A stretch of DNA of 27,036 bases, from the IMG/VR virus record IMGVR_UViG_3300044911_002105, positions 1-27,036 of that record; one strand, 5' to 3'. Below are positions 1 through 27,036 of this stretch, piece after piece. Each line of letters starts with the position of its first letter. Position 1 is the stretch's first letter. Below the pieces are notes generated by a model, which had not been told where the DNA came from, did not search any database, and saw nothing but the letters and a program-made list of their open reading frames with translations. A program made the position numbers and the translations under genes. Source of the DNA: a virus.

Positions 1-150
1 AGCACCATGCTTCTTTATGGCACGGTGCAGCGGATACTTGGGTTTCTTGGATTGACTGATGTGTTGTGACCAGCGATTCTCAAGGGTTCTGCTGGTATAG
101 CCGACATAGACGGGCTTGGAGTCCTTGCGGACAAGATAGATAGTGTGCAT
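1..150 (-). CDS. GIY-YIG homing endonuclease, N-terminal part (runs off the window)
   Basis: Only the first 50 codons are in the window. The translation starts MHTIYLVRKDSKPVYVGYTS and carries the two halves of the GIY-YIG catalytic fold: IYLV for GIY, and YVG for YIG about ten residues later. An Arg and a His follow in the NRWSQH segment. It is about 80% identical (40 of 50 positions by eye) to the GIY-YIG protein encoded at 2839-3588. The start is fixed by a full AAGGAGG ribosome site just upstream and by identity to the paralog. The catalytic Glu and any DNA-binding tail lie outside the window. It points away from the plus-strand gene island and towards the window's left end. Family knowledge: free-standing GIY-YIG genes in T4-like phages are usually mobile homing endonucleases. 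That this one is mobile is inference. Confidence 0.88.
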   Translation of the reverse strand, partial: MHTIYLVRKDSKPVYVGYTSRTLENRWSQHISQSKKPKYPLHRAIKKHGA

Positions 151-181
151 TGGGAGCCTCCTTCACAGGTTTCTTGCCATG

Positions 182-209
182 CCCCTGGGTGCTGATTACA
201 CCGCAGGGG
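182..209 (-). ncRNA. Conserved leader hairpin of GIY-YIG gene 1
   Basis: Read on the minus strand, this forms CCCCTG, a bulged C, GGTG, a 7-base loop, CACC, then CAGGGG. The same structure sits upstream of the second GIY-YIG gene at 2781-2807. There the inner stem is GATG/CATC, so one base pair has changed on both sides (A-T to G-C) and pairing is kept. No T-run follows, so it is not a typical terminator. A cis-acting RNA element in the endonuclease mRNA leader is inferred. Confidence 0.6.
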
Positions 210-220
210 TTTTCTATGAC

Positions 221-228
221 TACCTATG
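221..228 (-). promoter_or_regulatory. Candidate late promoter of GIY-YIG gene 1 (CATAGGTA)
   Basis: The minus-strand octamer CATAGGTA lies 70 bases before the start codon at 150. This is the same spacing as CATAGATA before the paralog at 2839. It resembles the T4 late promoter TATAAATA, known from T4 to be read by the gp55 sigma factor. Bases 219-227 on the minus strand (ATAGGTAGT) can also pair with codons 3-5 of the gene (136-144). Confidence 0.45.
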
Positions 229-247
229 ATTCACCATATTTCTGTCG

Positions 248-278: not shown

Positions 279-773
279 ATGCACCCATTCACACGACAGG
301 ATTCCCTTGCGAAAGCAGCACAATCCACTCTTGAGAAGAACAGGAACACCACCCTTGCAGACTATCTGGCAGAAGCCGACTCGATGAAGGCTATGACCAA
401 GACCTCGCCTCAGATGTTCAATTTCGGCAACCACTATGTGGAGAAGCCTGAGAACATCGAGCGCATCAACGGATTCATCAAGAGGTTCCTCGCGGGAACT
501 CACCTTGAGCCTGAGACTCAGATACGCCACCTGTTCCTCCATCTTCAGTCCATCGGTCTCATCGTCAGCGGATACAAGGGACAGGACGGCACATTCGACA
601 TCGACCAGTTCGGCAAGCCACTGGACAACAAGCCCGTGGAAGGCGACCAGAAGACGCACGACATGTACTTCCCCCGTGGGAACATCGGAGGCAAGATCAA
701 GATCAGCCGCACGATGACTCCTGGAGGAAGATACATGATCGACGCAGAGGTCTACGGCTTCCGCAAGAACTGA
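279..773 (+). CDS. Hypothetical phage protein, 164 aa
   Basis: I do not recognise this family. The start is chosen because AGGAG lies six bases upstream and a candidate late promoter lies at 248-255. The protein is soluble, with no membrane segment. It begins with a helical stretch containing TTLADYLAEADS around residues 24-35. The YLAE/A inside it resembles a T4-type prohead protease site, so it could be a virion protein with a removable N-terminus (inference). The middle (roughly residues 45-95) is predicted helical and contains IERINGFIKRFLAG. The C-terminal third is strand-rich with Gly turns. It is first in a four-gene plus-strand unit, five bases before the next gene. Confidence 0.75.
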   Translation: MHPFTRQDSLAKAAQSTLEKNRNTTLADYLAEADSMKAMTKTSPQMFNFGNHYVEKPENIERINGFIKRFLAGTHLEPETQIRHLFLHLQSIGLIVSGYKGQDGTFDIDQFGKPLDNKPVEGDQKTHDMYFPRGNIGGKIKISRTMTPGGRYMIDAEVYGFRKN

Positions 774-2760: not shown

Positions 2761-2768
2761 CATAGATA
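2761..2768 (+). promoter_or_regulatory. Candidate late promoter of GIY-YIG gene 2 (CATAGATA)
   Basis: CATAGATA lies 70 bases before the start at 2839, matching the spacing of its counterpart at 221-228. It overlaps the left arm (2762-2773) of a 12-base perfect inverted repeat. The right arm (2842-2853) covers codons 2-5 of the endonuclease gene. Confidence 0.5.
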
Positions 2769-2853
2769 GTGTGTAGAAAACCCCTGCGATGCGGAAACAT
2801 CCAGGGGCATGGCAAGAAACCTTTCAAGGAGGCTCCCAATGCACACTATCTAT
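2762..2853 (+). promoter_or_regulatory. Long-range inverted repeat enclosing the ribosome site of GIY-YIG gene 2
   Basis: ATAGATAGTGTG at 2762-2773 is the exact reverse complement of CACACTATCTAT at 2842-2853. In a transcript reading through from upstream, the pair would enclose the inner hairpin (2781-2807), the AAGGAGG ribosome site (about 2826-2832) and the AUG. A transcript starting at the candidate late promoter would lack the left arm. A 9-base version with one G-U pair exists in the other leader (219-227 with 136-144). Confidence 0.5.
2781..2807 (+). ncRNA. Conserved leader hairpin of GIY-YIG gene 2
   Basis: CCCCTG, bulged C, GATG, loop CGGAAA, CATC, CAGGGG. It has the same architecture as 182-209 on the minus strand, with one compensatory pair change in the inner stem. 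It lies in the 5' leader between the candidate promoter and the ribosome site. Confidence 0.6.
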
Positions 2854-3588
2854 CTCGTTCGTAGAGATTCCAAGCCCGTCTATGTCGGCTATACCAGCAG
2901 GTCTTTGCAAGACCGCTGGAAACAACACATCCATATCTCAAAGAACCCTAAGTTTCCCTTGCACCATGCCATCAAGAAGCATGGTGCTGAGTCCTTTACC
3001 ATAGAGACCCTCTATGAGTCGGAGGACGAGTATCACACCTTGAACTACATGGAACACCACTACATCTGGCTCTATCAGACGCATGGGAGTCTAGGTGGAT
3101 ATAACATGACCCTTGGTGGAGAAGGAAACCCGAAGGGACTCACTGAGAAGGAGAGGAAGGAACGGAGGAAGGCTGAAAAGAAGGCTTGGTATGAAGCCAC
3201 CAAAGAGCGAACCAAAGTTCAACGGAAGGCTTACTATAAGGCTTATTGGGAAACAAACAAGGATCGATACAAGGTTTACAGGGAAACCAACAAAGAAAAG
3301 CAGAAGGCTTACGGGAAGGCATGGCAGGAATCCAACAAGCAAAGGGAGAAGGATCGGAAGAAGGCATGGTATCAAGCCAATAAGGACAAACAAAAGGCTA
3401 GGATGGAGGCTTGGAGGGAATCCAACGAGGAGAAGCGGAAGGCATACGAGAAGACTTACTACAAAGCGAACATGGTGAAGAAGAAGGCTCAGTCGAAGGC
3501 TCGGTATGAAGCCAACAAACTCTTCAAGACGATTGCAACTCTCCCTGAAGCATCCACACCAGCCACATCGAATCAACTAGATCGCTGA
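2839..3588 (+). CDS. GIY-YIG homing endonuclease with a C-terminal basic repeat tail
   Basis: 249 aa. The start is set at 2839, not at an in-frame ATG at 2809, because AAGGAGG sits just upstream and the paralog at 1-150 starts at the same residue. Residues 1-95 form a GIY-YIG nuclease domain: IYLV (4-7), YVG (15-17), Arg26, the probable metal-binding Glu72 in NYMEHHYIWL, and Asn89 in GGYNMTLGGEG. Residues 103-230 are a highly charged helical tail of imperfect repeats resembling K-A-W/Y-Y-x-A-N-K-x-K-x-K. This replaces the NUMOD/HTH modules seen in many homing enzymes and presumably binds DNA. The gene runs 65 bases into the 3' end of the oppositely oriented RuvC-like gene. Mobility is inferred. 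Confidence 0.9.
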   Translation: MHTIYLVRRDSKPVYVGYTSRSLQDRWKQHIHISKNPKFPLHHAIKKHGAESFTIETLYESEDEYHTLNYMEHHYIWLYQTHGSLGGYNMTLGGEGNPKGLTEKERKERRKAEKKAWYEATKERTKVQRKAYYKAYWETNKDRYKVYRETNKEKQKAYGKAWQESNKQREKDRKKAWYQANKDKQKARMEAWRESNEEKRKAYEKTYYKANMVKKKAQSKARYEANKLFKTIATLPEASTPATSNQLDR

Positions 3589-5908: not shown

Positions 5909-5916
5909 TATCTATC
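5909..5916 (-). promoter_or_regulatory. Candidate late promoter (GATAGATA) before the 5891 gene
   Basis: On the minus strand GATAGATA ends 17 bases before the ATG, followed by AGGAGG. It sits just after a strong terminator-like hairpin at 5927-5946, which marks a transcription-unit boundary. Confidence 0.55.
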
Positions 5917-13700: not shown

Positions 13701-14323
13701 CGCTTCTTCTTCCCCTTCAGCACCAATGTCACCCCAACGATTTTCTTTCCTTTTGAACCCTCGCTGCTGCTGGAGCGTATTCCCTTCTTTGCGGCTCGGT
13801 CACGAGTAAAGCCTGGACGAGATGTCCATATGTCTTGGGTCTTCATCTTGGATGCCTGACCGATGATCCGATTGTTGCGAACTACATGGACATGCTTTCT
13901 GGTATCGGGATCCTTCCTGAGCGTGTTCCAGACGGATGCGCCACCAGGACTCTGTTGGGCGTCGCTATGCACATCGACACCCATCCCATGAAGGTGCTTG
14001 TACGCTGCCACGGCAAGCGAGTGACCTATCTTCTTCTTGGTGTGCTTCGGGTGGACGGAAATGCCATGGACTGCAAACCTCTTTGGCGATCCCTCGCCAT
14101 CTATCCTGCCAATCACCTTCTTTGTCTTGTCATGGGTGATGAACATAACATTATCGCCCTCCCTGTGCAACGAATAGTCCTTGTGTATCTTCCCGATGTT
14201 CATGATCTTGTCGTCCCTTTCGGTCCTTTCGGCTTTGAACACACGATTGGCGTGGTGCGCATCGAAGCCACCAGCAACGCCAATCAGATCGATGTCTTCC
14301 CGAAGTTGAGTGTAGGTTTTCAT
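13697..14323 (-). CDS. Capsid-targeted GNAT-like protein, 208 aa
   Basis: N-terminus MKTYTQLREDIDLIG resembles the T4 internal-protein signal, with a less typical LRE/D site. Residues 45-150 match the two GNAT-like domains of the 12379 gene product. The core is SVHPKHTKKKIGHSLAVAAY, then DAQQSPGGASVWNTLRKDPD. The basic tail ends GSKGKKIVGVTLVLKGKKKR. It starts one base after the upstream TGA, with GAGG as ribosome site. If active it would acetylate an amine on a host target at infection. The acceptor is unknown, and the acetyl-CoA-binding signature is weak (TKKKIG rather than RxxGxG/A). Confidence 0.8.
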   Translation of the reverse strand: MKTYTQLREDIDLIGVAGGFDAHHANRVFKAERTERDDKIMNIGKIHKDYSLHREGDNVMFITHDKTKKVIGRIDGEGSPKRFAVHGISVHPKHTKKKIGHSLAVAAYKHLHGMGVDVHSDAQQSPGGASVWNTLRKDPDTRKHVHVVRNNRIIGQASKMKTQDIWTSRPGFTRDRAAKKGIRSSSSEGSKGKKIVGVTLVLKGKKKR

Positions 14324-19964: not shown

Positions 19965-20327
19965 TCAGTATTCAGTCCAGGATGCCATCCCAAGCCGCAC
20001 AAGTTCATCGTTGGACAAACCATCCATGCACTTCCAGCCTGGAACGCACTTCTTGGTTGAACCTGTCAGGTATCTCCACAGATGCCTGGCATCCTCCTTG
20101 TCCATGTTGATCCCTGCCGGAGGAATGTCTAAGAAACAGGTCTCCGAATGCACCACCCTGTAGGGAACCGTACCCCATTCCTCGGGGAGGTCCAAGACCT
20201 TCCTGAAGACCTTGACAACGACATCGGTGGGAATCCCATGCGTGTCATCGACCACGGTGAAAACCATCACCACGGTGTTCGTCGGGTCATGGATCTTGTG
20301 ATGACTGACAAGCCCTTCGTACTTCAT
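19965..20327 (-). CDS. ARxxW-family small protein, 120 aa (array member 2)
   Basis: Starts MKYEGLVSHHKIHD at the ATGA overlap (20324-20327); a longer frame to 20363 would run into the upstream gene. The body is strand-rich (TVVMVFTVVDDT, DVVVKVFRKVLDL). The family motif NMDKEDARHLWRYLTGS lies near residues 83-100. It is followed by an unusual 30-residue extension (CVPGWKCMDGLSNDELVRLG) that ends SWTEY. This is one of the few members with added sequence after the motif. Function unknown. Confidence 0.76.
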   Translation of the reverse strand: MKYEGLVSHHKIHDPTNTVVMVFTVVDDTHGIPTDVVVKVFRKVLDLPEEWGTVPYRVVHSETCFLDIPPAGINMDKEDARHLWRYLTGSTKKCVPGWKCMDGLSNDELVRLGMASWTEY

Positions 20328-20554
20328 CCCTTCACCCACCCATGGGATGTGATGTCCCTCCACAAGGCACGGGCTTCCTCCTTGGTGAAGCGTCTATCTG
20401 TAGTGATCATCGCGGTGCGGGAATCCCATCGCCATATGGTCTGTTCCTTGCCATTCCAGAAATAGCGGATGCTCATGGAGTCCTCGCCCTCGACCGTGAA
20501 CCGAATGATCATGTTGGGAAGAGTGTTGTGCGCGATCAGATCGTATGTGGTCAT
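20324..20554 (-). CDS. ARxxW-family small protein, 76 aa (array member 3)
   Basis: MTTYDLIAHN at the ATGA overlap (20551-20554). Typical short member: strands MIIRFTVEGEDSMSIRYFW and TIWRWDSRTAMITTD, then the motif FTKEEARALWRDITSHGWVK at the C-terminus. It aligns by eye along its whole length with the members at 20751-21023 and 21264-21494. Confidence 0.78.
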   Translation of the reverse strand: MTTYDLIAHNTLPNMIIRFTVEGEDSMSIRYFWNGKEQTIWRWDSRTAMITTDRRFTKEEARALWRDITSHGWVKG

Positions 20555-20787
20555 GACATCCATCCAATCGACACCAGATACTTCCACATCTGCCGCGCCT
20601 CATCCTTGCTCAACTCCGTGGTCGGGGTCATCTTCCTACAATCAAGGATCCAATGCTCCATCCGTTGGTTGCCGTACATGAACTCAAGCGTCACCATTCC
20701 TGCGTCATGAACATGGAATTCCATGACGGCATCCATGGGGAACATTCTGGTCAACAGGTGGTCTGATCGCAACTTGTATATGGGCAT
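20551..20787 (-). CDS. ARxxW-family small protein, 78 aa (array member 4)
   Basis: MPIYKLRSDHLLTRM aligns with MKRYELRSEPDCRAM of the next member, so the start at 20787 is kept. This is despite a 37-base overlap with the upstream gene and a weak ribosome site. The body VMEFHVHDAGMVTLEFMYGN matches the family strand pattern (FFVHGDGSVTTEY in the neighbour). Ends LSKDEARQMWKYLVSIGWMS. Confidence 0.77.
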   Translation of the reverse strand: MPIYKLRSDHLLTRMFPMDAVMEFHVHDAGMVTLEFMYGNQRMEHWILDCRKMTPTTELSKDEARQMWKYLVSIGWMS

Positions 20788-21023
20788 GGCTTGTATCCGA
20801 TTGAACGCAAAAGGTTCCAGATCTTTCGGGCATCTTCCTTGTCGAACTTCGTGTCAGGACTTATGAAACGATTCCCGATGTCTAGTATACCGTAGTGATT
20901 AAAGTGCCATGTTTTCTGTTCCTTGCCACCAACCAAGTATTCCGTGGTCACTGATCCATCACCATGGACGAAGAACCGCATAGCGCGACAGTCGGGTTCG
21001 GATCTCAGTTCATACCGCTTCAT
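20751..21023 (-). CDS. ARxxW-family small protein, 90 aa (array member 5)
   Basis: MKRYELRSEPDCRAMRFFVH, GDGSVTTEYLVGGKEQKTWH, then the motif FDKEDARKIWNLLRSIGYK. A short Cys-containing extension (PCPYTSCDQTTC) follows. GGGAGG lies about nine bases upstream of the ATG. It overlaps the preceding gene by 14 bases. Confidence 0.78.
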   Translation of the reverse strand: MKRYELRSEPDCRAMRFFVHGDGSVTTEYLVGGKEQKTWHFNHYGILDIGNRFISPDTKFDKEDARKIWNLLRSIGYKPCPYTSCDQTTC

Positions 21024-21267
21024 ACTCTACAGCCTCCCTTGGGGGAACACGAACCCAACCTTGCTCCACAAGCGTCCACCAGAACTCACGCGCCCTCGCC
21101 TTGGTGAAGCCCTGTAGATCCCTGAAGACCTCTTCATCCACCGTCCAGTTCATCGCTGCCTTGCCATCGGGGTAGAAGAACCTGGCTGTCACGATGTCAC
21201 GGTCTCGGTAGGCAAGGAAGACGATGACATCCCCGTCCTTGTGAAGTTCGTATCTGTCGAAGATCAT
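21010..21267 (-). CDS. ARxxW-family small protein, 85 aa (array member 6)
   Basis: MIFDRYELHKDGDVIVFLAY, TARFFYPDGKAAMNW, then FTKARAREFWWTLVEQGWVR and a tail PPREAVEYEAV. The start at 21267 overlaps the upstream TGA and has AAGGAGGT seven bases upstream, which decides against the longer frame to 21309. Confidence 0.78.
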   Translation of the reverse strand: MIFDRYELHKDGDVIVFLAYRDRDIVTARFFYPDGKAAMNWTVDEEVFRDLQGFTKARAREFWWTLVEQGWVRVPPREAVEYEAV

Positions 21268-21494
21268 CCCTTGACCTCCTTCCATCCACAGTTCCTCAGT
21301 GTCCTCCATATCCTCCGTGCATCCTCCTCGGTGAACCTAATGGTCGGTTCGATTCTCATTCCGATGACGAACCATATGGACTGTTTCCTGTCATCGACCG
21401 AGTACTCCATCGTCACGGCTCCATCGCCATGGACGAGGAACACCATCAGGAAATCTCCGTCAAACGACTTGAACCTCAGTTCGTGCCTCTTCAT
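21264..21494 (-). CDS. ARxxW-family small protein, 76 aa (array member 7)
   Basis: MKRHELRFKSFDGDFLMVFL, VHGDGAVTMEYSVDDRKQSI, then FTEEDARRIWRTLRNCGWKE at the end. It is closely similar to the member at 20751-21023 (VHGDG.VT.EY...KQ..W is shared), which indicates duplication. Ribosome site AGGAGG upstream; ATGA overlap. Confidence 0.79.
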   Translation of the reverse strand: MKRHELRFKSFDGDFLMVFLVHGDGAVTMEYSVDDRKQSIWFVIGMRIEPTIRFTEEDARRIWRTLRNCGWKEVKG

Positions 21495-21739
21495 TCCTCG
21501 ACCCTCCTGTATCCATGCTCGACATGGATCCTCCAGATCCCCCTGCCCTGCTCAAGGGTGCGCCGATCCCTTTCATCCGCTCCGTTCATCAGGTGAGAGA
21601 AATCCAAGCCGTTCTCAGTGTAGCGGACGATGACATTCGGCTCAGGCTCGTCCAGCACCTTGAAGATCAGCCGACAGGAGAAGATTGTGCCGCTGGTGGT
21701 TACGTCCTTTGCAAGGACATAGGTTCCGACGATGGTCAT
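21491..21739 (-). CDS. ARxxW-family small protein, divergent, 82 aa (array member 8)
   Basis: MTIVGTYVLAKDVTTSGTIF is a different N-terminus. The middle (RLIFKVLDEPEPNVIVRYTE) keeps the strand pattern. The motif is changed to RTLEQGRGIWRIHVEHGYRR, with Gly for Ala and His-Val in the spacer. It overlaps both neighbours by ATGA. Confidence 0.74.
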   Translation of the reverse strand: MTIVGTYVLAKDVTTSGTIFSCRLIFKVLDEPEPNVIVRYTENGLDFSHLMNGADERDRRTLEQGRGIWRIHVEHGYRRVEE

Positions 21740-22056
21740 TTCACGGCTCCGTTCAGGGGGTAAGGGAAGGTATTCTGAAGTTTCCGAAGTTCATCCTCGG
21801 GCAACTCGGAGGAGTCGATCCATCCTTCCTTCCGCATCATCCTCCATGCATCCCTTGCCCCCTCCTTGGGCAGGGTCATATAGCGCAACCGGTTAGGTGC
21901 ATTCCAGAATTTACTATGGCGTTGTCCTGCCCATGATCCCCCCATGTCCCTGGTGCATGCAAACACATCCACCGTGGTGTTGCACACAAGGAAGCGAATC
22001 AGCACAATGCCGGGGCGGCGGGAAGAGACGAGGGTATGGGCTGTATGGATGGGCAT
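21736..22056 (-). CDS. ARxxW-family small protein, 106 aa (array member 9)
   Basis: MPIHTAHTLVSSRRPGIVLI, RFLVCNTTVDVFACTRDMGG, then LPKEGARDAWRMMRKEGWID. A 25-residue extension SSELPEDELRKLQNTFPYPL follows the motif, similar in kind to the extension (NDELVRLG) of member 2. No clear ribosome site precedes the ATG at 22056, and a 49-base gap follows the upstream gene. Confidence 0.72.
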   Translation of the reverse strand: MPIHTAHTLVSSRRPGIVLIRFLVCNTTVDVFACTRDMGGSWAGQRHSKFWNAPNRLRYMTLPKEGARDAWRMMRKEGWIDSSELPEDELRKLQNTFPYPLNGAVK

Positions 22057-22105
22057 GGGCGGTCAGACCATGATAGCAGGATTGCGTTCGCAGTCAATGG
22101 GAACA

Positions 22106-22432
22106 TCATGTGGATTGGGGATAGAAACCGTAGCCGTCTTTCCTCAGGTTAGCCCAGAGTTGCCGTGCATCCTCGATGAGCAGCCATGTCCCGTTCATGT
22201 GGAACCAAATTCCACGGACATCTTTATCATAATCCTCCACCCAGATGCCAGAATCCTTGATCCATTGAAAGATCCGAACCTTGATCTGTTCCTGTCTCAC
22301 ACAGTGCGTGTCCGAAAAGGACACAGCCACGATGCCATCGTCCCAATCGCTCACCGAAGCAGCCGAGACGACCTTGGGGGGATAGAGGATCCATGATGGC
22401 TGCTGGCTGCCTTGGATGATGATTTTGCTCAT
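22106..22432 (-). CDS. ARxxW-family small protein, 108 aa (array member 10)
   Basis: MSKIIIQGSQQPSWILYPPK. The start at 22432 is fixed by AAAGGAAG five bases upstream. The body is IVAVSFSDTHCVRQEQIKVR, with WFHMNGTW. It ends LIEDARQLWANLRKDGYGFY. Larger than the core members. Confidence 0.76.
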   Translation of the reverse strand: MSKIIIQGSQQPSWILYPPKVVSAASVSDWDDGIVAVSFSDTHCVRQEQIKVRIFQWIKDSGIWVEDYDKDVRGIWFHMNGTWLLIEDARQLWANLRKDGYGFYPQST

Positions 22433-22469
22433 GGCTTCCTTTGTGGGTTCTTTGTGAAGTTTGGAAAGG

Positions 22470-22799
22470 TCAGGAAGAGGAACGATCCATGCGATGGATG
22501 TCATAGCCCATGAGCCTCAGGTGCTTCCATATGGTTCGTGCCGACTCGAGAACGCATGGAATGCCTGGGACATGGATGTCCCCGACAACGACGACTTCTC
22601 GCCGCAACTTCCAGTCCAGCCTGTCATCAGACCATTCGTATGGATACACCGAGATGGTTCCGTTGGAGATGCGCAGGAACTCCATCATGAGCATTCCCGT
22701 CTTCAGTTCATCCCTAGAGTTGGCTTTCTGGGTCTCAGGGCAGCAGAGAACCCAACGGTTGCATTGAGTGGTGCCAGTCATGGTCATGGTCGTGGTCAT
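22470..22799 (-). CDS. ARxxW-family small protein, 109 aa (array member 11)
   Basis: MTTTMTMTGTTQCNRWVLCC, then strands MLMMEFLRISNGTISVYPYE and LRREVVVVGDIHVPG, ending VLESARTIWKHLRLMGYDIH. ATGs at 22808, 22799, 22787 and 22784 all lie in the Thr/Met-rich start. 22799 is chosen because AGGA sits eight bases before it. Confidence 0.73.
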   Translation of the reverse strand: MTTTMTMTGTTQCNRWVLCCPETQKANSRDELKTGMLMMEFLRISNGTISVYPYEWSDDRLDWKLRREVVVVGDIHVPGIPCVLESARTIWKHLRLMGYDIHRMDRSSS

Positions 22800-22808
22800 G
22801 TCTTTCAT

Positions 22809-22982
22809 CCTACATCAGGATGGGAAGGGAGTCAATGGGAAGATCGTTGGGAACATTATGAGGATTGGGAAGAGATTTGGGTGTATGTGGTCTGGGATGG
22901 CAACTGGAATGTGGTTTTCGGTGTGGGAAACGGGGATCGGGGGAAATCTGGGGGAAGGGATGTCATGGAATGTCATGGAATG
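22809..22982. other. 174-base intergenic spacer with short tandem and shared repeats
   Basis: This is the largest gap within the small-gene array. It has two tandem copies of ATGTCATGGA and a related third (ATGTCACTGG) near 22970-22991. A segment around 22831-22870 (GTCAATGGGAA ... GAACATTATGAGGATTGGG) resembles 22093-22118 (GTCAATGGGAACATCATG then TGGATTGGGG), which lies at the end and just downstream of member 10. The plus strand is G-rich. No convincing gene is seen on either strand. It may be a decayed array member or a recombination scar. Confidence 0.5.
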
Positions 22983-23336
22983 TCACTGGATGTAACCATT
23001 GCTCCTCATGATGTCCCAAAGGTTCCTTGCCGTGACTCCATTGCCGTTCACGGGGATGACAGGTCCTGTCTTTAGTTTCCAGACCAATGGTTTACAGGTC
23101 CAAGAATCCTTGGACCGGAAATGCACAGCCATGGATGCTTCGGTCCATACGTTTTGCTTCTGTGATCCATTCAATTGCTCAGACCACGAATCGAACCTCA
23201 GGAAGCAATGTTCTCCCTGAATGCGGAAGATGAGCCTCTTCTCAGCGGTGCCATAGAGGGGATCATCCCCAAGCCTCACGGGCGACTTGGGGTAGTAGAG
23301 GGTGTACACGCTGGTTTTTGTGAAGTCCTCATTCAT
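22983..23336 (-). CDS. ARxxW-family protein, 117 aa (array member 12)
   Basis: MNEDFTKTSVYTLYYPKSPV shares YxLxxPKSPxR...GDP with the member at 24512-24808. A long strand-rich middle follows (KRLIFRIQGEHCFLRFDSW, VWKLKTGPVIPVNGN). It ends GVTARNLWDIMRSNGYIQ. Start overlaps the upstream stop by ATGA. Confidence 0.77.
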   Translation of the reverse strand: MNEDFTKTSVYTLYYPKSPVRLGDDPLYGTAEKRLIFRIQGEHCFLRFDSWSEQLNGSQKQNVWTEASMAVHFRSKDSWTCKPLVWKLKTGPVIPVNGNGVTARNLWDIMRSNGYIQ

Positions 23337-23590
23337 TCGACATACCCCTTGCTGCGGTAGCGGTTCCAGATCTCCCTTGCCACTTCCACGGTCACCCAGT
23401 ATCCCCCACAGGCTTTCCTTGCAGACTTTGACGACTCATTCAGAACATCATCTGCCTCACAGTTCGTGTGATCCGTACACCACAGGTTCTTGTCATGGCA
23501 TAGGTTCTTGACCAGGAAGAGATTGGTCTCTTCTTCCAGAACGAATACGACCTTGCGGGGGTGTCTGTGCAGGGTGTATTCGTTGCTCAT
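23333..23590 (-). CDS. ARxxW-family small protein, 85 aa (array member 13)
   Basis: MSNEYTLHRHPRKVVFVLEE starts at the ATGA overlap (23587-23590); the longer frame to 23908 runs antisense-like through the next gene. Unusually it has three Cys in the middle (NLCHDKNLWCTDHTNCEADD), possibly metal-binding. Ends VTVEVAREIWNRYRSKGYVE. Confidence 0.77.
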   Translation of the reverse strand: MSNEYTLHRHPRKVVFVLEEETNLFLVKNLCHDKNLWCTDHTNCEADDVLNESSKSARKACGGYWVTVEVAREIWNRYRSKGYVE

Positions 23591-23850
23591 CGCGCCCATC
23601 CGTCCTTCCGGTAGTGGTTCCAGCACTCCCTTGCCATTTCCACGGAAACACCAATGCTGTGGCGGAACCACAGAGGATCCTTCCCCGAGGTCAAGATCTT
23701 GTACTTGAAGCAGGGAATCCAGTTGCAACTGCCCATTTCCCATTCCCAGGCAGAGATGATAGTCGATTGCCCGGGCGGGTTGACGGTGAACTCCATCTTT
23801 TTGATGATGATCCCTGACACGGTGTAGAAGAGGGTGTACACTTGCTTCAT
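23587..23850 (-). CDS. ARxxW-family small protein, 87 aa (array member 14)
   Basis: MKQVYTLFYTVSGIIIKKME. The body ISAWEWEMGSCNWIPCFKYK matches ISAWEWNNVACEWIPCFKNK of the member at 24512-24808. The two are clear duplicates. Ends VSVEMARECWNHYRKDGWAR. ATG 23850 is preferred over GTG 23868; neither has a strong ribosome site. Confidence 0.76.
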   Translation of the reverse strand: MKQVYTLFYTVSGIIIKKMEFTVNPPGQSTIISAWEWEMGSCNWIPCFKYKILTSGKDPLWFRHSIGVSVEMARECWNHYRKDGWAR

Positions 23851-23894
23851 CTTGGTCTTCTTCTTCACGGGGTCTTCTTGGCGGGAGACACGAT

Positions 23895-24173
23895 CTACAC
23901 GATCTCACGGATCACGACCGTTGTGATCTTCTCCTGAACGATCTCGTACTCGCTCTCGGTTGTTCCAGTCGGGAGTGTGCCTCGGTCGGCATACCCCTTC
24001 AGGATGAAGCCCATTTGAACTCGCTGGTGGATATTGAAAGAGGGGATGCGCCAGTCCTCGTAATCCACCAAGAGAGCGGCGTGTGCCTCAAGGCACAGAA
24101 ACTTGCCGCTAGGCTTGTGGCGGAAGGTCAAGGTGGTCTTGGTCTTGGACTTGGTGTTGGTGGGCTTCTTCAT
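23895..24173 (-). CDS. Unassigned small protein in the array, 92 aa
   Basis: MKKPTNTKSKTKTTLTFRHK opens basic; then LCLEAHAALLVDYEDWR and a strand-rich end (SEYEIVQEKITTVVIREIV). It lacks the C-terminal AR..W motif of its neighbours, so it is either unrelated or a member that lost it. It is not ATGA-coupled and has a weak ribosome site. Function unknown. Confidence 0.65.
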   Translation of the reverse strand: MKKPTNTKSKTKTTLTFRHKPSGKFLCLEAHAALLVDYEDWRIPSFNIHQRVQMGFILKGYADRGTLPTGTTESEYEIVQEKITTVVIREIV

Positions 24174-24197
24174 TGCTTGCTTTCGTGAGGCGGGTGT

Positions 24198-24515
24198 TCA
24201 TGGCGTACCGATCTGGATCGTAGTGGGAATGAGTCGATGCGCCAGGGCGATACCCCAAAGGTAGCGGCAGTGGTCGGTCGTTCGGCGTTGAGCGGCTGAA
24301 CCAAGATCGGATCGCACCATCCACATCGTTCCGTCTGGATTACGGAAGAACACGATCCACCGAATCACACTGACATTGGTGGGGTTGACCAACACCCACC
24401 ACTGGCAGTCGTTGAATACATGAAGGTGATCCCGCTTGAAGTCGCAGACCGCCTGGCGGGCTTCGGCGGTGTTCAATTCCAATTCGGTTGTCAGAGTTTG
24501 GTTGCTGTTCATCAT
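24198..24515 (-). CDS. Divergent array protein, 105 aa
   Basis: MMNSNQTLTTELELNTAEAR at the ATGA overlap (24512-24515). Strands CQWWVLVNPTNVSVIRWIVF then GTMWMVRSDL. The C-terminal TDHCRYLWGIALAHRLIP keeps the Arg-x-x-Trp spacing but not the GW/GY ending. I count it as a degenerate member of the family. Confidence 0.7.
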   Translation of the reverse strand: MMNSNQTLTTELELNTAEARQAVCDFKRDHLHVFNDCQWWVLVNPTNVSVIRWIVFFRNPDGTMWMVRSDLGSAAQRRTTDHCRYLWGIALAHRLIPTTIQIGTP

Positions 24516-24808
24516 TGCACCCACTTTTCCTTCCGGTAGTGGCACCAGATCTCCCGTGCCTCTTCCTTGGTGACAGCAATGCAGTGGTTGAACGACAGAG
24601 GATCCCGGGTCGCGAGATACACGCTCTTGTTCTTGAAGCAGGGAATCCACTCGCATGCGACATTGTTCCATTCCCATGCAGAGATGGTCACCACATGCTT
24701 GTTCGGCATCTGCATCTTGAACTCCATCTTGCGGGTGGCTTGCCCTAGATTCGGGTCGCCCCAGGGGCGTTCAGGAGACTTGGGATGGTGGAGTCTGTAG
24801 GTTTCCAT
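24512..24808 (-). CDS. ARxxW-family small protein, 98 aa (array member 15)
   Basis: METYRLHHPKSPERPWGDPN, then KMEFKMQMPNKHVVTISAWE and CEWIPCFKNK (shared with member 14). Ends VTKEEAREIWCHYRKEKWVQ, with Lys replacing the Gly before Trp. AGGAG upstream of the ATG at 24808. Confidence 0.78.
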   Translation of the reverse strand: METYRLHHPKSPERPWGDPNLGQATRKMEFKMQMPNKHVVTISAWEWNNVACEWIPCFKNKSVYLATRDPLSFNHCIAVTKEEAREIWCHYRKEKWVQ

Positions 24809-24824
24809 TGGTTTGGCTCCTCTG

Positions 24825-25109
24825 TCATGCCGTCACATGGAAGTACCCGTGGTCGTTCACCAGCGAGTCCCAGATCTGTCGGGCTTGATCCTTGTCGTAA
24901 GTTCCCGTGTACGGATGGGGAAATGCATGGTTGGTGACCCATATGCAACGGTCGTAGTCCCATGCATACGGTTCCATATGGACATATCCGTCCTTGAGGA
25001 CGGAGAAAACGACCAGATGGGTGAAGACGACGGGTCCGTGTGCCGTCTTGCTGCGGAGGCGAAGGTGGTGGCGGTGCAGGACTTCATGGAATGATGGCTT
25101 GGTGGTCAT
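24825..25109 (-). CDS. ARxxW-family small protein, 94 aa (array member 16)
   Basis: MTTKPSFHEVLHRHHLRLRS has a basic His-rich start. The middle LVVFSVLKDGYVHMEPYAWD resembles LVIFTVQEDRITVFVQAYSW of the next member. Ends YDKDQARQIWDSLVNDHGYF. AGGAG lies about 13 bases upstream of the start. Confidence 0.76.
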   Translation of the reverse strand: MTTKPSFHEVLHRHHLRLRSKTAHGPVVFTHLVVFSVLKDGYVHMEPYAWDYDRCIWVTNHAFPHPYTGTYDKDQARQIWDSLVNDHGYFHVTA

Positions 25110-25124
25110 GGCTTTGCGCTACTC

Positions 25125-25418
25125 CTACCGCAGAGGATCGAAGTCGTGAGATCTCAGTTTGTTCCAGATGTCTCGCGCTGTTCCGACGCTGTATAGCCCC
25201 GAAGTATCTGCCCCCATCTCCCTGAGCGTTTCGCGGTCGGGCAGAAACCTTTCCGCGCCCCAACCCCGCGACATCGAGGTCCATGAGTATGCCTGTACGA
25301 AGACCGTGATACGATCTTCCTGCACTGTGAAGATGACCAGATTGGTGTAGAGTTCCCCCCTCTGCTTGCGCCGTTTGATGGGGGGGTAGATGAGTCGGTG
25401 GCTGATCTTGGTGTCCAT
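25125..25418 (-). CDS. ARxxW-family small protein, 97 aa (array member 17)
   Basis: MDTKISHRLIYPPIKRRKQR. The start at 25418 is set by AGGAGG upstream; a longer frame to 25448 would enter the CobT-like gene. The middle LYTNLVIFTVQEDRITVFVQ matches the family. Ends YSVGTARDIWNKLRSHDFDP, with the usual Gly-aromatic replaced by Asp-Phe. It is the first member of the array, immediately after the CobT-like gene. Confidence 0.77.
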   Translation of the reverse strand: MDTKISHRLIYPPIKRRKQRGELYTNLVIFTVQEDRITVFVQAYSWTSMSRGWGAERFLPDRETLREMGADTSGLYSVGTARDIWNKLRSHDFDPLR

Positions 25419-25431
25419 GGTCTTGTCCTCC

Positions 25432-27036
25432 TCACTTGGCAACGACATCCATCAGGGTGTTGATGAACAGACGGTTGGCTTGCTTCTGTCGCATGGAAGC
25501 CATGAAGGACTTCTCGAGGTTCTTCTGGCGGGTCTGGATGGTCTTGGCAGCCAGCCCCTTCGCCTCAGCCCTCTCAGCCATCGTGTCAGCCCGAGAGTCG
25601 TTCACGATTGCCACAAGGCAGTAGCCATCGTAGGCAGGGATCTCAAGGCTCAGGAACCTGTCCTTGGCATACTTCTTCTCAGCAGCCTCCCGCTTGCTCC
25701 TTTCGGCATCGGTGGGATCGGTGGCTCCCACCTGCCACCACCACGGTCCCGAGTAGGACAGGCGGTAGTTGCTTCCATCCCTGGACTCGAGGCGGATGCC
25801 GACGATGCTTGCACCCGTGGCATCCTTGAACATCTGCACTGCCGCAGAGTGGGTGGTGTGGTCGTCGCCCTTGAGGTCGAAGCGGCGACCAGTCTCCTTG
25901 TCCACGACGACCCTAGCCAGGGTCTTGCTGCCCACGCAGGGCGAATGGACGCGATTGATGAGGCTCTGACCCTCTCCGTCCGTGATGCTGATGAGCGTGA
26001 CCTTGGTGTTGCTGGACTTTCGGAAATCGTTGACGATGTCCCGCATCGCGAGGATGGACTCGTCGAGGGGGGTTCCGCCAAGGGACAGGGGACCGTTGTC
26101 GATGCTGACCTCCCTGCTGCCGGGGAAGGCTACGGAATCGGACAGGAGGATGAGGCGACCAAGGGAAGCCACCATCTTGCGCTGACCAGCCGCGCTGTCG
26201 TAGACCTTGAACAGGGAGAACATGGAGCAGTGGCTAGCCTTGCCCTCCATGATGTCCTGCCTGGTCGTTCCGCAGACGATCTCGTTGAAGAGGTCGTTGG
26301 AGTCCTGGGCAGTCCATCCCTTGTTCGTACCGGGGATGGGGGTGGAGTACCCCATCGCGGCATTGCTGAGGAACTCCTTGCGGTTGATTCTGGGGTTCCT
26401 GCGCATGATCTCGTCCAGCACAGCCTTGTTGTAGATGCTGCTGAAGAAGTAGACCTGGACGGGGATGCCCACGCGGCGGCAGAACTCCACCGTAGCCACC
26501 AACTGGCTCACCGACTCGCGGATGATGCCCTGCATCGACCCCGACCAGTCGAGGAGGATCACGATGCCGTGGTTCTTCTCGTCGGGCTTGATGCACATGC
26601 GGTCGAAGATGTCCTCGCTGAAGCGGTAGTTCTTGAGGAGACGGGGCGAGATGCGACCCGACTTCTGCGAGGTGGTCTTCGCAAAGTTCCTGGCGGAACG
26701 TCGAACCTCGAACCTGCGGCACATCAGATCGACGCTCTTCTTGTTCTCGTCCTTGACCCTGCGGAAAGCCTTCATGCTCTTCTCTTCGACCAGCCGCGTC
26801 TTCTCTGGGGAGGACGAGCCGCAGGTGTGGCGATCCACGCGGCACTGGGTGTCGAACATGGTCATGAACTCAGCGGTCTCCACCACGACCTTGGAGGCAT
26901 CGATGGGACGGACCTCGATCTGCTGCTCCACGATGCTGCTGTCAACGAGACCCTGAAGCCCCGTGCGACCCGCAGCAGCCGTGTTCACCATCTCAGGCTC
27001 GTACTCCTCTTCGGAAGCCTCAGACGGCTCAGAGGC
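25432..27036 (-). CDS. cobT: CobT-like VWA-domain protein (open at the window edge)
   Basis: The frame is open to the window edge. An internal ATG at 26991 gives 519 aa, but the 15 codons before it are in frame and acidic (ASEPSEASEEEYEPE), like the acidic linker of CobT proteins. Counting from that Met, HGIVILLDWSGSMQG around residue 141 is a VWA MIDAS motif (DxSxS). LGGTPLDESI and LISITDGEG supply the further Thr and Asp. Just before it, RRFEVRRSARNFAKTTSQKS is typical of the T4-like cyanophage proteins annotated CobT. Those are usually paired with a CobS-like AAA+ protein, which is not in this window. The phage role is unknown; cobalamin synthesis is doubtful. A CobS-MoxR-like partner outside the window is expected. 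Confidence 0.87.
   Translation of the reverse strand, partial: ASEPSEASEEEYEPEMVNTAAAGRTGLQGLVDSSIVEQQIEVRPIDASKVVVETAEFMTMFDTQCRVDRHTCGSSSPEKTRLVEEKSMKAFRRVKDENKKSVDLMCRRFEVRRSARNFAKTTSQKSGRISPRLLKNYRFSEDIFDRMCIKPDEKNHGIVILLDWSGSMQGIIRESVSQLVATVEFCRRVGIPVQVYFFSSIYNKAVLDEIMRRNPRINRKEFLSNAAMGYSTPIPGTNKGWTAQDSNDLFNEIVCGTTRQDIMEGKASHCSMFSLFKVYDSAAGQRKMVASLGRLILLSDSVAFPGSREVSIDNGPLSLGGTPLDESILAMRDIVNDFRKSSNTKVTLISITDGEGQSLINRVHSPCVGSKTLARVVVDKETGRRFDLKGDDHTTHSAAVQMFKDATGASIVGIRLESRDGSNYRLSYSGPWWWQVGATDPTDAERSKREAAEKKYAKDRFLSLEIPAYDGYCLVAIVNDSRADTMAERAEAKGLAAKTIQTRQKNLEKSFMASMRQKQANRLFINTLMDVVAK

Follow-up and report, generated by a model that had tools for sequence, protein, structure and literature searches.

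The stretch of DNA analysed here, referred to as the window, is a 27-kb virus record, and its segment 2761-2853 raises the question of how translation of the gene behind it is started. This gene (2839..3588, plus strand) codes for a 249 amino acid protein which agrees with GIY-YIG/homing endonuclease profiles (PHROG homing endonuclease match, E-value 9e-18), and PF01541 was matched on the N-terminus of a paralog (E-value 1.3e-7). From its sequence, we read the segment as the 5' leader of a putative GIY-YIG homing endonuclease gene, one that is free-standing. The paralogous GIY-YIG gene, which runs off the window, is preceded by a second copy of the leader (128..232, minus strand) which scored 51.1 bits with the R1 covariance model.

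Among the other genes of the window, the best relatives of the last large ORF are found in T4-like cyanophages and in marine viruses related to these (23-27% identity). DUF6267 (PF19782) is matched in its first part by the ORF 1150-1914 and in its second by the adjacent ORF 1911-2747, as though one gene had been split. On the minus strand at 19965-25448 there is a row of small ORFs of about 75-130 amino acids which are alike at their C-terminal ends (ARxIWxxLRxxGY/W-like), and which apparently represent a tandemly amplified gene family.

The initial annotation had proposed that a 12-base perfect inverted repeat joins the late promoter to the first codons and acts as a switch. The repeat itself was confirmed at exactly the positions given: the arms 2762-2773 and 2842-2853 are 12 nt long, 100% complementary and separated by 68 nt, and the right arm comprises codons 2-5 (CAC ACT ATC TAT) of the gene starting at 2839. 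Folding lengthens the helix to 14 bp including one U-G, with a left arm of 2762..2775 and a right arm of 2840..2853 which takes in the UG of the AUG in addition to codons 2-5; the predicted probability of this helix in read-through RNA was 0.999 (z = -4.4). None of 2000 left-arm shuffles gave a duplex energy as good as that of the window, and only 1 in 20000 reached 12 Watson-Crick pairs. When codons 1-8 were recoded synonymously and the left arm was kept, at least 12 pairs arose in 429 of 20000 cases, and codon choice therefore explains only part of the repeat. At the window locus the repeat is far beyond chance, and it provides the I-TevI type of helix, that is one linking promoter-region RNA to the translation start.

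Whether the repeat is conserved across GIY-YIG loci was also considered; set against shuffles and swapped arms, the ten other loci gave no support for this, and the idea was rejected. The comparison took in eleven GIY-YIG loci, ten once the window was left out, and in these ten related loci a locus's own arms paired no better by energy than swapped arms (p = 0.28), while the longest run was slightly better for own than for swapped arms (p = 0.019). The best repeats outside the window were those of L007 and L040, which 72 and 138 of 2000 shuffles equalled, respectively, and the arms of L017, L045 and L192 gave 5-6 pairs only. The 9-base version which had been noted in the paralogous leader (128-232, minus strand) does exist, with one G-U, but 409 of 2000 shuffles do equally well, so that it is no evidence of conservation. 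From the swapped-arm and shuffle results it follows that the repeat, and with it a left arm which is not conserved in relatives, is special to the window phage and near-identical contigs.

The left arm overlaps a candidate late-type promoter, CATAGATA (2761..2768, plus strand), which has two mismatches to TATAAATA; since this promoter is plausible, a T4 I-TevI-like switch is possible in the window. Eight copies of ATAGATA were found in the window, five of which lie no more than 90 nt upstream of a gene start, as against 7.2% of positions (p 9e-5; gene starts picked by the analyst from the ORF list). With the copy at 2762 and two coding copies left out, four of five were upstream of gene starts (p 1.2e-4). 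This enrichment makes CATAGATA at 2761 a reasonable promoter candidate. TATAAATA was not clearly enriched in the window, where 4 sites with one mismatch were located and 1.7 were expected. The ATAGATA sites upstream of genes include those at 5915, 10370, 18850 (minus) and 249 (plus), and the motif is a candidate late promoter of the window phage. By T4 spacing from CATAGATA, the RNA would presumably start near 2774.

The T4-late-like ATAAATA occupies the corresponding place in several GIY-YIG relatives. In the HNH-type leaders, TANNNT starts 10-24 nt before the first hairpin, P1, in 47 of 56 cases, compared with 9-14 of 56 in controls (p 1.5e-19). The presence of these two kinds of site before P1 suggests that the leader begins at or near the mRNA 5' end, as predicted from the sequence, in two different promoter settings.

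What the initial annotation had missed is that the repeat encloses a conserved leader of approximately 63 nt with two hairpins. In the window the leader element (P1, CRYG, Shine-Dalgarno (SD) hairpin and start codon) extends over 2775..2841 on the plus strand, and R1 scored it at 57.6 bits (E-value 1.3e-12), the window leader (as L001) itself belonging to the training set of R1. Folding and covariation delimit the 5' strand of P1a at 2781..2786, which pairs with 2802-2807 (the 3' strand, 2802..2807). It is followed by a bulged C at 2787 that is invariant in 58 of 58 leaders, and by P1b (2788..2801; 2788-2791 with 2798-2801, loop 2792-2797), which is supported by covariation. Directly after P1 comes the junction CAUG (2808..2811), an instance of C-R-Y-G, of which CAU can pair with the AUG at 2839-2841. 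The Shine-Dalgarno sequence AAGGAGG (2826..2832), recognised from its sequence, lies within the second hairpin region.

The core of the window leader reads CCCCUG-C-GAUG-(CGGAAA)-CAUC-CAGGGG-CAUGG, and in the paralog leader GGUG/CACC replaces GAUG/CAUC. Generally, P1 consists of 6 bp with a C-rich 5' strand ending in G, the bulged C, 4-5 bp and a mostly 6-nt loop, which is often CNNNAA. C-R-Y-G follows directly, then P2 with the SD in its loop or 3' side, and then the start codon. In the GIY-YIG leaders, including that of the window, P2 is irregular as well as short, and a better description of the AUG side is a pairing of GCAUGG with C-C-(N)-AUGC. The leader of the window and that of L170, which stands before a Zn-ribbon HNH gene, share every letter from AAAA to the end of CAUG.

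The evidence for the structure comes from two alignments, A3 with 48 distinct leaders and A4 with 58. A4 comprises 36 of the 48 rows of A3, near-duplicates being omitted, and 22 of 36 new leaders. The 14 new leaders left out were the same as A3 rows (L303, L308, L312 and L343), near-duplicates (L315, L327, L339 and L346), without an assigned start (L305, L317 and L323) or doubtful (L318, L331 and L332). L083 had been dropped as chance before A3, duplicate leaders were merged, and L236 has the motif and is in no alignment. In A3, 97.7% of P1 was paired and double changes were observed at eight of ten pairs; none of 500 shuffles reached the score, and sliding abolished the signal. In A4, 570 of 580 P1 cells were paired, and pair 11-33 occurred as UA (19), CG (15), AU (13) and GC (11), thus being Watson-Crick in 58 of 58 leaders. 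For P2, 268 of 406 cells were paired in A4, as against 184.6 +- 7.1 in shuffled sets, the maximum in 5000 shuffles being 213.

The cleanest test was that in which the search pattern fixed most of P1a and left P1b and P2 unconstrained. P1b was fully paired in 45 of 47 loci and, in the 36 distinct leaders, in 143 of 144 cells; in the latter set P2 was paired in 145 of 252 cells compared with 110.5 +- 5.7, a value not reached in any of 2000 shuffles. C.A mismatches recur in P2 of this set. Within CRYG, the C and G are invariant (58/58); R is A or G and can pair with the U of AUG; in 12 of 58 leaders Y40 is C, which gives a mismatch with the A of AUG. The GIY-YIG leaders fit P2 in the HNH register poorly, 68% of P2 cells being paired in A3, and the RNAalifold consensus of A3 contained P1 only and no P2, so that P2 rests on the pair counts. 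Together the counts show that the RNA around the start site has a conserved structure.

Leaders in other contigs were found by pattern and protein searches. R1 placed the leader immediately before the gene in 45 of 78 HNH relatives (48-79 bits) and 14 of 15 GIY-YIG relatives (49-67 bits), many of which had also trained R1. The duplicate contigs L197 and L198, absent from the HNH round of scoring, were scored with the GIY-YIG relatives. The sole GIY-YIG relative without a leader is L196, which upstream of 3001 has a tRNA T-arm-like hairpin after an ATAAATA site instead. In a control of 748 kb of bacterial contigs the R1 maximum was 26.8 bits; among the matches listed by a pattern scan of genome contigs, 100 of 118 loci were scored and none was higher. 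When whole contigs were searched, 18 of 25 carried the leader, including the non-training sites L278, L289 and L298; by reading, the L278 and L298 sites precede HNH-type ORFs. Phage contig L172 carries two leader-nuclease cassettes (605-664, minus strand, and 13862-13921, plus strand; HNH and HNH_3) with identical P2.

Named phages were sampled by protein or gene-DNA similarity, since blastn of the leader letters against them gave no matches or only short partial ones. In the first set 2 of 14 exceeded 30 bits, namely Arthrobacter phage Persistence, with two leaders (58.8 and 55.4 bits) at HNH genes 41 and 34, and Pasteurella phage PMP-GADVASU-IND, with one (33.4 bits) before an HNH gene. A compensatory change from C-G to U-A distinguishes the P1 stems of Persistence genes 41 and 34. 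In the second set 5 of 7 exceeded 37 bits: Tiff81, Richie and Bauer, which are not independent as the similarity query included the leader, Zucker, whose leader site lies away from its similarity match, and 1191A. In this set Faja had no leader and WinkNick reached only 19.8 bits. In both sets the leaders stand mostly at HNH genes. The leader was thus found in uncultivated phages, in cultured Arthrobacter phages and in one Pasteurella phage.

The proteins encoded downstream belong to several Pfam types: GIY-YIG, HNH, HNH_3 (with AP2 or HTH), NUMOD4 with HNH_3, and T5orf172/MUG113, which we take to be GIY-YIG-like. The Pfam scan covered 19 of 22 downstream proteins in one set. Of the Pfam-scanned proteins, 13 of 20 passed the nuclease-type cut-off and L340 fell below it. 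No nuclease family was recognised by Pfam in L311, L314, L318, L324, L331 and L341, nor in Richie gp47 and Zucker gp35; the product in L331 is a Rep protein (PF23343). Since some downstream genes lack a nuclease family, the element is mainly, but not solely, a nuclease leader. The leader-like hairpin before the Rep gene (L331:73-137, in a 5.1-kb contig) is without a clear P2. The start codon at the leader of Bauer precedes the annotated start of gp40 by 45 codons, and the frame it opens includes a complete HNH_3 domain. The leader suggests start codons other than those annotated for Persistence gp34 (MW712719.1 24567-24629), Richie gp96 (MH834625.1 52420-52482) and Bauer gp40 (OP580516.1 28574-28636).

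Folding of 44 leaders indicated that the AUG is less exposed than in shuffles (0.41 versus 0.53, p 0.0015) and the SD more exposed (0.61 versus 0.46, p 1e-5). The AUG exposure of the leaders equals that of 19 other genes of the window (0.413). This pattern fits an SD presented in a loop together with a lightly held start codon, and the raised SD exposure could also go with an enhancer rather than a brake. It had been supposed that late transcripts, lacking the left arm, would be open and translated. By prediction, the late RNA would not be simply open: from 2774 onwards, GCAUGG (2807-2812) is paired in the minimum free energy (MFE) structure with CC-A-AUGC, which covers the AUG (probability about 0.37), the unpaired probabilities of the AUG being 0.75/0.37/0.15.

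Several known systems resemble parts of this arrangement. In T4 I-TevI, I-TevII, I-TevIII and segB and in mobE of phage Aeh1, the available accounts place the late promoter in the left arm and describe a start region sequestered on read-through RNA (PMC2988022, PMC3014915). The inverted repeat of the window has this same layout, with a candidate promoter in the left arm and the start codon in the right. In these accounts, however, the hairpins are described as gene-specific, without a shared covarying two-hairpin motif across nuclease families, and they match the window repeat and not the conserved leader. Unlike them, the leader starts at the candidate promoter, and therefore promoter-derived RNA would carry it too. 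The seg43(25) gene of Aeromonas phage 25 is described as having a stable hairpin which directly precedes an unsequestered homing endonuclease RBS; compared by description only, this hairpin resembles P1, but the available account mentions neither a second SD hairpin nor CRYG.

The SAS/ESAS elements of cluster K mycobacteriophages and EF Microbacterium phages are, in the available texts, SD-containing conserved repeats located at the start codon and closely preceded by an inverted repeat or second motif (PMC3203893, PMC7302621). SAS is described as a conserved sequence, GGGATAGGAGCCC, which serves many genes, and its authors consider it poorly supported that the upstream repeats form a hairpin in the mRNA. 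The layout is like that of our leader, but what these accounts present is a conserved sequence without covariation support (PMC3203893, PMC7302621, PMC12699233); within 2 mismatches, GGGATAGGAGCCC occurs near the start in 0 of 58 leaders. The 17-bp repeats of cluster O are, in the account available, not tied to start codons (PMC4351075). Rfam 15 gave no match at the leader in the window and 16 other loci, weak chance matches falling elsewhere. No description of the leader was found in the literature covered, which was mostly without subscription papers and hence gives weak evidence of absence.

Could the 12-bp repeat alone explain the segment, read-through RNA being locked and late RNA, without the left arm, open? 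The strength of the repeat, the lock predicted in read-through RNA, the promoter motif inside the left arm and the precedent of T4 all speak for such an I-TevI-type switch. Yet the repeat is not conserved in the ten relatives, in the late RNA GCAUGG is still predicted to pair with the AUG, and the conserved leader is left out of account, so that the geometry and the predicted lock of the annotated switch stand but we regard it as unlikely to be the main mechanism. Slightly better placed, though still doubtful, is the notion that the repeat arose by chance, a promoter motif (ATAGATA) and Ile-Tyr codons (ATC TAT) happening to be complementary: the GIY-YIG relatives retain these codons and AT-rich promoters, and swapped arms pair about equally, but the 12-14 bp of the window exceed the yield of two such motifs (0/2000 shuffles).

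For the leader itself, a portable element that raises rather than restrains expression, its 5' hairpin protecting the mRNA and P2 presenting the SD, would fit the position of P1 at the promoter-proximal end and an SD more exposed than in shuffles. A mere stabiliser needs neither the invariant bulged C nor C-R-Y-G, however, and the AUG is less exposed than in shuffles, which leaves this as a minority reading. We hold it equally improbable that the leader is the operator of a common trans-acting factor, a host or phage RNA-binding protein or a small ligand, governing a nuclease regulon. Sequence-specific invariants (the G-C beside the bulged C, the CNNNAA-like loop and CRYG) before unrelated protein families argue for it, but the hypothetical factor would have to be spread across cyanophage-like, Arthrobacter and Pasteurella phages. 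A transcription terminator or DNA-level mobility site is very improbable: two terminator-like hairpins (L083 and L133) are similar to P1, but P1 is followed by GCRYGR and no U run, and P2 covaries around the SD and start codon.

We infer that the leader controls translation initiation, and consider it rather probable that the segment combines a portable leader for translation initiation, belonging to homing endonuclease genes, with a phage-specific read-through lock present in the window. In this combination of leader and lock, the anti-start CRY would engage the AUG in a weak coaxial helix that leaves the SD accessible, and initiation would be restricted or postponed for as long as the small structure is not opened, whether by the ribosome, by a protein or ligand, or through a change in conditions. 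Lying next to its own putative promoter, the leader could travel with the gene as an expression cassette, one that may serve unrelated nuclease families in unrelated phages. In the window phage, read-through transcripts would in addition fold the inverted repeat around the leader, in the manner of T4 I-TevI, giving two layers of control, a general leader and a phage-specific I-TevI-like lock. More speculative is a cross-phage RNA regulon for selfish genes, in which the leader is exchanged between unrelated nuclease families (GIY-YIG, HNH, HNH_3, NUMOD4 and T5orf172) and phages, and senses a common intracellular signal (a protein, a metabolite or the state of the ribosome) to time nuclease translation; we think this possible but doubtful.

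A leader with matching paired changes before many unrelated nuclease genes in different phages suggests a common, apparently undescribed way of timing the translation of selfish phage genes. It is directly testable in cultured phages of Arthrobacter globiformis, and would help to locate such genes in unannotated phage genomes and to correct their start codons. Homing endonucleases must invade without damage to their phage host; if our reading is true, unrelated nuclease families would have solved this problem in the same way, by means of one leader that they share.
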